DNA of 64,000 bases from Pseudomonadota bacterium (GTDB taxonomy: Bacteria > Pseudomonadota > Alphaproteobacteria > Acetobacterales > Acetobacteraceae): assembly GCA_021849425.1 (NCBI GenBank), contig JAJZSY010000012.1, positions 1 through 64,000 of the forward strand, read 5' to 3'. Positions within the stretch are counted from its first letter, which is position 1. The number at the start of each line of letters is the position of its first letter. Both the position numbers and the translations under genes were made by a program. The notes under the pieces are model-generated. The model was not told the DNA's origin. It worked only from the letters and a program-made list of their open reading frames with translations, and did no database searches. Positions 45,037 through 46,979 of the stretch are shown in pieces.

Positions 45037-45103
45037 CGACCGCGCGGTTCGGCCCTGATACCCCCGGCATCGTCACTGAATGAAAGTCAACGGGAGACTG
45101 CAC

Positions 45104-46447
45104 ATGAAACCCCGGTCACATCATGGTTCCTGGCGCCTGGCGGCTGCGGCTGGCATGGTCGCCGCGGCATCGCTGGCGGCGCCGGGCGCCGCCTATGCCA
45201 TTCCCGCCTTCGCGGCGCAGACCGGAGAGCCCTGCTCGGCCTGTCATATCGGCTTTCCGCAGCTGACCCCATATGGGCGGGATTTCAAGCTCGAGGGCTA
45301 TATCGCCGGCGGCATGTTCCCGACCTGGAAGAATTTCGCGGCGATGTCGCAGATCGGCTGGACCCAGCAGCACGACAAGATACCGGGCGGGTTGCAGCCA
45401 GGCTTCAAGTCGAACGACGCCTGGGCGGCGCAGCAGACCAGCCTGTTCTATGGCGGCGCGCTGGATTCGGCGATCGGGCTCGGCGCGTTCGTGCAGGTCA
45501 CGTATGATGGCGTGGCCCGGCAGTGGAGCTGGGACAATACCGATATCCGCCTCGCCCGGCCGGGCAAGCTGTTCGGCCATCCGCTGTTCTGGGGTGTCAC
45601 GCTCAACAACAATCCGGGTGTCACCGATCTGTGGAACACGCCGCCGAGCTGGGGGTATCCGTATATCCCCTCGGGCCTCGCCAACGCGCCGGCCGCGGCA
45701 CAGCAGATCGCCTCGCTCGCGCAATCGGTCTATGGCATCGGCGTCTATGGCGCGCTGAACGTGACGCCGGCGGACATGATCTATGCCGAGGCGGATCTTT
45801 ACAAATCGCTGCCGCAGCGGCTGGGCTACGCGCTCGGCGCCGGGGGCGGGGTGAAGATCGATGGCGTAGCACCCTATGTGCGGCTCGCCGTGCAGCACCA
45901 GTGGGGCAATTCCTCGATCGAGGTCGGCACCTATGCGCTGATGGACCGAACCTATCCGACCGGCGTCGCCAGCGGGCCGACGAACCGGTTCTTCGACATC
46001 GCCGCCGACTCCCAGTTCCAGTACATCACGCAGAACCAGGCCTTCTCGGTGCAGGCCAACCTGGTTCACGAATCGCAGGAATGGGCGCCGGGTGCCGCCA
46101 GCAACCGGGCCGACAGCCTCAATGTCGCGACGATCACGGTTTCCGACCTGATCTATCAGAAATACGGGATCACGGAATCGTTCAACACGATCTATGGCAA
46201 CGCCGATGCGGGCGAGTATACGAGCAGTGCCAATGGCAAGCCGAACAGCAATGCCTGGACGACGGAACTCGATTACTATCCGTTCAACAATGGCGGGCCG
46301 AAATGGCTGCCGTGGCTGAATGCGAAACTCTTCGTTGAAAACACGATCTACCCTGTATTCAACGGCAGTGTGCGCAACTATGATGGCGCGGGAACGAACG
46401 CGCAGGCGAACGATACGCTCTTTGCGGGCGTGTGGCTGGCTTTCTGA
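45104..46447 (+). CDS. Cyc2-like fused monoheme cytochrome c / outer-membrane porin
   Basis: 447 aa from ATG 45104 (GGGAG 7 nt upstream; ATG 45080 is possible but lacks a ribosome site). A signal peptide probably cleaves after AYA32. The mature N-terminus carries one heme motif, C44-S-A-C-H48, in IPAFAAQTGEPCSACHIGFP followed by LTPYGRDFKLEGY, the pattern of the Cyc2 cytochrome cap. The remaining 380 residues alternate aromatic and polar residues as in a beta-barrel and end in phenylalanine, the usual outer-membrane sorting end. Known relatives move electrons between Fe and the periplasm across the outer membrane. A soluble cytochrome follows 53 bp later. Direction (Fe(II) oxidation or Fe(III) reduction) is not decided by sequence. 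Confidence 0.82.
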   Translation: MKPRSHHGSWRLAAAAGMVAAASLAAPGAAYAIPAFAAQTGEPCSACHIGFPQLTPYGRDFKLEGYIAGGMFPTWKNFAAMSQIGWTQQHDKIPGGLQPGFKSNDAWAAQQTSLFYGGALDSAIGLGAFVQVTYDGVARQWSWDNTDIRLARPGKLFGHPLFWGVTLNNNPGVTDLWNTPPSWGYPYIPSGLANAPAAAQQIASLAQSVYGIGVYGALNVTPADMIYAEADLYKSLPQRLGYALGAGGGVKIDGVAPYVRLAVQHQWGNSSIEVGTYALMDRTYPTGVASGPTNRFFDIAADSQFQYITQNQAFSVQANLVHESQEWAPGAASNRADSLNVATITVSDLIYQKYGITESFNTIYGNADAGEYTSSANGKPNSNAWTTELDYYPFNNGGPKWLPWLNAKLFVENTIYPVFNGSVRNYDGAGTNAQANDTLFAGVWLAF

Positions 46448-46500
46448 CGAACATGACGCACCCGCCCAGGGGGGCGGGTGCCGGACAGGAGAGACTGCAC

Positions 46501-46875
46501 ATGAAATCCTTAACCATCCTTGCCCTGGCTGCCGGTGCCCTGAGCATCGCCGGGGCGCATGCGGCGAATGTCGCGCATGGCGAGGCGTTGTTTCAGGCCC
46601 AGTGCGCGGCGTGCCACAGCGCCAAGGCGGGGCAGAACGGGATCGGGCCTTCGCTGGCGGGGATCTATGGTGCCAAGGCGGCGGCGAGCGCGGGGTTCCA
46701 GTTCTCGCCGGCGCTGAAGCATTCCGGCATCGTCTGGAACGCGGACACGCTTTCCAAATTCCTCGCCAATCCGCAGGCGGACGTGCCGGGCACCAAGATG
46801 CCCTATATGGGCATGCCGAATGCGACGGACCGCGCCGATGTGGTCGCCTATCTCAAGACGCTGAGCGGCAAGTAG
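46501..46875 (+). CDS. periplasmic class I cytochrome c
   Basis: 124 aa with signal peptide MKSLTILALAAGALSIAGAH (cleaved near AHA/ANV). One heme site CAACH at 35-39 and likely axial methionine at about M100-M105 in GTKMPYMGMP. The NPQADVPGTKM and YLKTLSGK features are those of mitochondrial/bacterial c2- or c550-like cytochromes. Its ribosome site and first codons (GAGACTGCACATGAAA) are identical to those of the upstream cytochrome-porin gene. Likely partner that carries electrons across the periplasm. Confidence 0.93.
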   Translation: MKSLTILALAAGALSIAGAHAANVAHGEALFQAQCAACHSAKAGQNGIGPSLAGIYGAKAAASAGFQFSPALKHSGIVWNADTLSKFLANPQADVPGTKMPYMGMPNATDRADVVAYLKTLSGK

Positions 46876-46891
46876 GGCGGTTGCGGCACGA

Positions 46892-46915
46892 CCCGGCCCA
46901 GGCGGGCCGGGTTTT
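46892..46915 (+). terminator. intrinsic terminator of the cytochrome unit
   Basis: Stem CCCGGCCC (46892-46899) with GGGCCGGG (46904-46911), 4-nt loop, then TTTT. It lies 16 bp after the cytochrome c stop. Confidence 0.88.
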
Positions 46916-46946
46916 GCCGTGTTTCGTGAACCGGTCTTTCGGGCGG

Positions 46947-46979
46947 GCCTCATCCGGCGGGAGCGGATGAGGCCTTTTT
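46947..46979 (+). terminator. second tandem terminator
   Basis: Stem GCCTCATCCG (46947-46956) with CGGATGAGGC (46964-46973), 7-nt loop, then C and five Ts. A backup terminator before the convergent ilvH. Confidence 0.88.

Follow-up and report, generated by a model that had tools for sequence, protein, structure and literature searches.

The Two-Gene Locus

The window, that is, the whole stretch of 64,000 nucleotides analysed here, carries at positions 45104–46875 two genes lying on the same strand, separated by a spacer of 53 bases and each preceded by a purine-rich ribosome-binding stretch (see Table 1); this span, assigned to two genes by the original prediction, is correct. Gene 1 starts at an ATG at 45104 with GGGAG on its 5' side, an alternative in-frame ATG at 45080 giving a protein of 455 aa, and its translation, in which both AFAAQTGEPCSACH and LTPYGRDFKLEGY are found, proceeds from a signal peptide through AIPAFAAQTGEPCSACHIGFPQLTPYGRDFKLEGY and a long beta-rich part to a terminal Phe; the signal peptide, the single CSACH and the C-terminal Phe named beforehand are all present, and just one CXXCH occurs. 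Gene 2 had been described as a small class I cytochrome c, and its score against PF00034 (46.2 bits, cut-off 21.3) bears this out; it contains one CAACH (residues 35–39), followed further on by PGTKM, which we take to be the probable sixth-ligand site by likeness to mitochondrial cytochrome c. The best PDB sequence match of gene 2 is itself a cytochrome c, the top matches including cytochrome c-y; in NCBIfam, every family listed for gene 2 lies under its cut-off.

Table 1: Positions, strand and basis of the features of the gene pair.
Feature	Positions	Strand	Basis
Gene 1, Cyc2-like monoheme cytochrome-porin, 447 aa	45104..46447	+	Open frame, relatives, 16-strand model, dN/dS
Signal peptide of gene 1, residues 1–32, cut after AYA	45104..45199	+	Translation; by eye, -3/-1 rule
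Cytochrome segment of mature gene 1 (AIPAFAAQT motif, PQL, GRxFKxxGY)	45200..45313	+	Conservation
Heme-binding CSACH of gene 1, residues 44–48	45233..45247	+	Translation
Predicted 16-strand beta barrel, residues 77–446, then C-terminal Phe 447	45332..46441	+	AlphaFold2 model; Foldseek and VIA-align matches
GC-rich hairpin in the spacer between genes 1 and 2	46458..46481	+	RNA fold of 46445–46505, z -4.5 vs shuffles
Gene 2, periplasmic class I monoheme cytochrome c, 124 aa	46501..46875	+	PF00034 E 1.2e-11; PDB match E 5e-26
Terminator-like hairpin 3' of gene 2	46883..46920	+	Fold z -4.0
Second terminator-like hairpin with T run, 3' of gene 2	46945–46975		

The upstream neighbour is a divergent recQ, and downstream ilvN and ilvB lie on the opposite strand, so that the pair stands alone; overlapping antisense frames in this GC-rich DNA were dismissed as spurious. 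A scan for sigma-70-type promoters at the pair found none, and a terminator pattern scan (2 found versus 1.1 expected) lends weak support to the hairpins after gene 2. The two genes may well be cotranscribed.

The Heme Segment of Gene 1 Compared with Cyc2

As set out in the relevant sections of PMC8406198, Cyc2 is recognised by AXPXFAR[QK][TY] before the CXXCH, by PXL four residues after it, by a length of at least 365 aa and by a 16-strand porin. In gene 1, the single CXXCH stands near the N-terminus behind the signal peptide (the latter assigned by eye), PXL is found at the proper distance in CSACHIGFPQL, and the 447 aa exceed the minimum length; the motif reads AIPAFAAQT, agreeing at six of the seven specified positions and having Ala in place of Arg. 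The Cyc2-like character that had been claimed is borne out as to CXXCH, PXL, length and predicted barrel, and departs from the published definition at the Arg. Because the defining motif is not matched in full, gene 1 is not filed here as Cyc2; it is a Cyc2-like variant that probably works as Cyc2 does.

The cytochrome segment is strongly conserved, both across the 18 sequences of the gene 1 alignment (A1) and across a wider set of 50 rows. In the former, 116 columns are invariant, among them the heme site, together with Ala30 and Ala32 of the signal peptide; in the latter, both Cys and the His of the heme site occur in 50 of 50 rows, these having been chosen by a pattern that contains CXXCH, as do the Pro and Leu of PXL and Lys62. 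His322 is invariant in the 18 rows of A1, yet it is kept in only 39 of the 50. Where a fixed sixth heme ligand was looked for, no Met, the start Met aside, is invariant over the 18 rows. Neither Pfam nor NCBIfam returned a family for gene 1, which agrees with the poor conservation of the porin part of Cyc2 noted in PMC8406198, in the part concerned; when Pfam was run over all 18 sequences, a single match at chance level was obtained (1/18, E 0.19), and the PDB sequence search, with gene 1 and its profile as queries, gave no significant match.

The Predicted Barrel

The original prediction had proposed a barrel-like region and had called for structure prediction, and the AlphaFold2 model built from the 18-sequence alignment upholds it, displaying 16 strands (mean pLDDT 67, pTM 0.71) with a poorly resolved heme segment (block pLDDT 33–54). 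The structures matched by the model in Foldseek and VIA-align are 16-strand porins, the best Z scores being those of OprO (4rjw, 21.7) and OprP (2o4v, 21.5), with PorB, OprB and others tied; the fusion of a 16-strand porin with a cytochrome is therefore found in gene 1 as a prediction, not as a solved structure. A viral fold library gave porin-like best matches and was uninformative. Since the number of strands is even, both ends of the modelled barrel would be periplasmic. Mariprofundus Cyc2 has likewise been modelled on OprO and OprP by Keffer et al. (PMC8406198, in the part on the model).

By the published criteria, rather than by alignment to a named Cyc2 sequence, gene 1 shares with Acidithiobacillus Cyc2 and Mariprofundus Cyc2PV-1 the signal peptide, the N-terminal CXXCH, the PXL, a length above 365 aa and the predicted OprO/OprP-like 16-strand porin; it differs from them in the Ala for Arg, in the monoheme class I nature of its neighbour and in a host genus noted for Fe(III) reduction. 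The Cyc1 of Acidithiobacillus is a diheme cytochrome of the c4 type; gene 2, with its one CAACH, does not carry the two CXXCH of a Cyc1-type partner. As to other class I cytochromes of the mitochondrial and c2 types, gene 2 has PF00034 and PGTKM in common with them and differs in being encoded beside a cytochrome-porin. The MtrAB and PioAB conduits also combine an outer-membrane barrel with a cytochrome; here one heme is fused to a 16-strand barrel, and the MtrB/PioB barrel that, with a decaheme partner, characterises MtrCAB and PioAB was not found, gene 1 having one heme motif and PF11854 giving no match in the window genome, as well as none above its cut-off in 14 control genomes.

The link from the outside to the periplasm for which the pair had been put forward is plausible. 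The wider claim of extracellular electron transfer is supported in part: a single heme at the periplasmic mouth, its presumed place here, would suit dissolved iron rather than conduction to solids, an argument made in the relevant part of PMC8406198.

The Acetobacteraceae Clade, Its Motif, and Its Partner Cytochromes

Window gene 1 falls into an Acetobacteraceae clade of 21 rows, supported at 100/99 in both trees computed (48 and 75 rows), which contained no named Cyc2 rows; the nearest row, from genome G153, is 88% identical, and the nearest named relatives are Acidiphilium, as the supposition of an Acidiphilium-type host would have it. Only weak support (80/57 in the 75-row tree) joins this clade to the Arg-type FPEL rows, and the tree program warned of one long branch (L135); window gene 1 is far from the rows of family f38, which bear the exact motif.

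The motif Arg is absent from all 21 clade rows (19 Ala, one Gly, and one Glu) and lost in most other Acetobacteraceae rows as well; applied strictly, the published Cyc2 motif would overlook the whole of this branch. Among 76 distinct rows, those with Arg have a diheme partner nearby in 8 cases, a monoheme one in 7 and none in 16, those without Arg a diheme partner in 0, a monoheme one in 26 and none in 19, the last count of each group being a weak result, as many of the 76 loci have a flank of about 1.5 kb or less. For rows with a partner, the association of Arg with partner type gives a Fisher p of 7e-5, over rows that are non-independent; Arg is not bound to a diheme partner, since the partner is monoheme in 7 of the 15 Arg rows that possess one.

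Parts of this picture are already known: Acidiphilium lies inside the similarity network of Acidithiobacillus Cyc2 (PMC10654088), and the Cyc2 homologues of acidophilic Acetobacteraceae often adjoin a mono- or diheme cytochrome c gene (PMC10715153), so that the presence of Cyc2 homologues in Acidiphilium and, for Acetobacteraceae, both a Cyc2 gene next to one for a c-type cytochrome and a deranged bc1 complex are on record in the relevant parts of these two papers. The homologues described there come from the same bacteria and are likened to gene 1 by description; the relevant parts of both papers make no mention of the departure at Arg or of the split between partner types.

A monoheme cytochrome gene lies downstream in 15 of the 21 clade rows, with a gene remnant in between in one of them (L070), and is missing from the other six (L012, L013, L014, L017, L019, and L027). 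The flank of L012 is just 333 bases long; a longer stretch (L143), whose copy is identical over the last 300 residues, is likewise without the partner, and no other electron carrier was recognised by eye beside the partnerless copies at L143, L014, L017, and L019. When the neighbourhood of the window was compared with 29 loci, several of which are the same place fetched twice and some of which are short, G153 alone was found to have recQ, metZ, and pepN in common, and the 5.3 kb beyond the opposite end of the G153 locus yielded neither ilvN nor ilvB. As the recQ neighbourhood recurs in one of 29 loci, yet 15 of 21 rows are paired, the pair is kept at differing genomic places. The six partnerless rows are what could be cited for the view that genes 1 and 2 are neighbours by accident and have no joint function; against it, 15 of 21 rows and several plasmids keep the two side by side at differing places, and we regard this view as extremely improbable.

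Distribution and Selection

When G153, the closest relative, serves as reference, gene 1 has a dN/dS (NG86) of 0.083 and gene 2 one of 0.124, and both genes look to be under purifying selection. All 13 genus genomes searched, the window genome included, carry a relative of gene 1, G157 having a fragment only; the A1 profile has matches in 41 of 150 genomes of the family and in 88 of 398 of the phylum (window genome counted in). A single family, f38, accounts for 65 of these 88; its matches cover the N-terminal part only (to profile position 149 at most, often to about 67), and the exact AXPXFAR[QK][TY] motif is present in all 11 f38 loci looked at. As a guess, f38 may be Gallionellaceae. A contig scan with gene 1 gave 19 loci, in records titled Acidiphilium, Acetobacteraceae, Rhodospirillales or just Proteobacteria; relatives are found also in soil-, lichen-, and methane-associated bacteria and on nine plasmid records, among them those of Acidiphilium, Caballeronia, Methylocystis, and Ideonella.

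Related genes are present in soil and other bacteria that are not known to us for iron metabolism, a point against the exchange with iron proposed below. Gene 1 could, alternatively, be a redox-gated or redox-sensing porin, or serve in metal or peroxide stress rather than in respiration, gene 2 recycling its heme; the wide spread, including organisms in which no iron respiration is known to us, and the loss of the hallmark Arg in the clade and in most other Acetobacteraceae rows would suit such a function. The dedicated cytochrome alongside and the conservation of the whole heme segment point instead to electron transfer, and with the strong purifying selection make a sensing or stress porin very unlikely.

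The Respiratory Chain of the Window Genome

The window genome is 94% complete. Its sole COX1-family match and the neighbouring subunit II exceed the NCBIfam cut-offs for cytochrome c oxidase; one aa3 oxidase is thereby indicated, which could accept electrons from a cytochrome c. The cytochrome b of a bc1 operon is recognisable (L107:5762-7158, contig C23 of the window genome); when aligned to solved structures, it has Glu and Thr where we take the b_H histidines to belong and PPWY where we place the PEWY motif, this comparison covering the cytochrome b of the window genome. The short frame just 5' of it has no Pfam match, and a full Rieske subunit was not found in this genome, the only bc1-type Rieske match being partial (E 6e-4) and located elsewhere. 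NapC/CymA is absent from all 13 genomes of the genus, with a positive E. coli control. Taken together, the missing b_H histidines, full Rieske subunit, NapC/CymA, and MtrB match mean that the searched routes from quinol to cytochrome c look closed, and the bc1 complex of the window genome looks dead. Loss of both b_H histidines and of the Rieske gene has been described for Acidiphilium in the relevant part of PMC10715153. This argument is not valid for the whole genus, because Rieske matches exist in G152 (above the cut-off) and in G155, G157, and G159 (full-length, weaker).

Among other carriers, HiPIP is present in 12 of the 13 genus genomes (11 above the cut-off), whereas rusticyanin reaches its cut-off in 0 of 13 and gives weaker matches in 2, no control having passed that cut-off either; these weaker matches are a rusticyanin-like protein in L111 (G159) and L112 (G155), with 104 bits against a cut-off of 146.7. 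In the window genome, 22 PF00034 matches reach E 0.01, and grouping by hand assigns them to about 14 open frames, gene 2 included; there are two PQQ alcohol dehydrogenase matches above the cut-off, and a SoxX-like cytochrome, read by eye, adjoins another monoheme cytochrome. A further frame (L109:2340-3785, contig C48 of the window genome) encodes a hydrophobic N-terminal stretch followed by three tandem class I heme domains, each of which shares 44–47% identity with gene 2; it is possibly a membrane-tethered electron wire.

Proposed Function and Direction of Electron Flow

Acidiphilium is a heterotroph often met in acid mine drainage, where it cycles iron; the literature searched, most of it by listing alone, yielded no experimental work on Cyc2-like genes from this genus. 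ApcA is a small protein. In the relevant parts of the sources, it is called a metal-reducing cytochrome occurring in all Acidiphilium clades (PMC7677001), an outer-membrane cytochrome has been suggested for the iron respiration of A. cryptum (PMC7142476, citing the ApcA paper), and two genome papers name no conclusive iron reductase in Acidiphilium, though ApcA is suggested (PMC4571130, PMC7142476). Gene 2 and ApcA of A. cryptum are both small c-type cytochromes of Acidiphilium, ApcA having several copies in some strains; they are likened here by description (PMC7677001, PMC7142476, as far as these describe ApcA).

The best explanation of the pair, in which we place moderate confidence, is that genes 1 and 2 form a bicistronic electron-transfer unit exchanging electrons with iron, with mainly inward flow under oxygen. 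Gene 1 would be an outer-membrane 16-strand porin whose N-terminal segment, with one heme presumably attached at CSACH, lies where the barrel opens to the periplasm; a redox ion in solution, most probably iron, would enter the barrel from outside and exchange one electron with this heme. The heme in turn would exchange the electron with gene 2, the soluble cytochrome c encoded alongside, and the latter would connect to the aa3 oxidase. Under oxygen, the net flow would most likely run from Fe(II) or another reductant to O2, and would keep cytochrome c supplied with electrons where bc1 fails to do so; inward flow is the simplest reading because bc1 does not seem to function and an aa3 oxidase is present, and an inward role for Cyc2 has been proposed for acidophilic Acetobacteraceae (PMC10715153, in the part on this point). 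Counting against it are the Ala at the motif Arg, the six clade rows of 21 without a cytochrome, the lack of rusticyanin above the cut-off in 13 genus genomes, the Rieske matches of some relatives and the low pLDDT of the modelled heme segment; moreover, the relevant part of PMC8790237 gives Fe(III) reduction as a known trait of Acidiphilium and lists A. acidophilum as a non-oxidiser of iron.

The original prediction had pointed to Fe(III) reduction, which is supported in part; as a direction it lacks support in the window genome, where the searched quinol-to-cytochrome-c routes look closed and an aa3 oxidase is present, although four other genus genomes do have a full-length Rieske-type match. 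Run outward, the same pair would be a terminal Fe(III) reductase, electrons passing from PQQ-type dehydrogenases or Sox to gene 2, gene 1, and dissolved Fe(III), bypassing the quinone pool and bc1; the PQQ alcohol dehydrogenase matches and the SoxX-like cytochrome would provide the sources, and the occurrence of gene 1 in all 13 genomes searched, one with a fragment, of a genus known to reduce Fe(III) with no conclusive reductase (PMC4571130, PMC7142476, in the parts concerned) fits this role. An ordinary class I cytochrome c has a potential of about +0.25 to +0.4 V; if gene 2 is of this kind, electrons would run downhill to Fe(III) at pH 2, and outward flow would be favoured. There are also precedents in the relevant sections of the literature, Acidithiobacillus Cyc2 having been proposed as a terminal ferric reductase (PMC8790237), and the small ApcA of A. 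cryptum being called ferric-reducing and present in all Acidiphilium clades (PMC7677001); gene 2 could be ApcA. With bc1 deranged and NapC/CymA absent from all 13 genomes, however, electrons from most organic carbon would not arrive, and the relatives in soil-, lichen-, and methane-associated bacteria are hard to fit to it; on balance, we hold outward flow to be somewhat unlikely. A more specific form of it, which we rate as unlikely, would make an Arg-less Cyc2-type porin with a low-potential class I cytochrome the acidophilic Fe(III) reductase of Acidiphilium, working outward past a dead bc1 by way of PQQ and Sox oxidations, the loss of Arg and the simpler partner setting the potential for that direction.

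Related Loci on Plasmids

In eight plasmid loci that were opened, a c-type cytochrome is the next annotated gene downstream of the gene 1 relative in seven, one broken copy counted; two of these loci do not differ over the part compared, which leaves six of seven distinct loci with this arrangement, and on pOLGA1 the cytochrome lies upstream, one gene away. The broken copy type is seen on pACMV3 (L073), where the gene 1 relative is split over two frames and the cytochrome gene still lies 3' of it, and the same layout, a split relative with a downstream cytochrome, recurs on contig C2 of G153 (L066, L069). On pACRY03, the leftover that separates the intact gene from the cytochrome gene is gene 1-like (L070:5420-5822). 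A plasmid stretch of CP084173.1, deposited as Acidithiobacillus ferrooxidans YQ-N3, is 100% identical to A. cryptum pACRY03 over the 6,748 bases compared (L070/L071), which would reflect either a transfer of recent date or a mixed culture that contained the Acidiphilium plasmid. Finally, plasmid pSBC1_3 of Caballeronia, a soil member of the Burkholderiales, carries in a row a HiPIP gene, located upstream, a Cyc2-like gene with the full FARQT, and a diheme cytochrome gene (L072:4897-7914).
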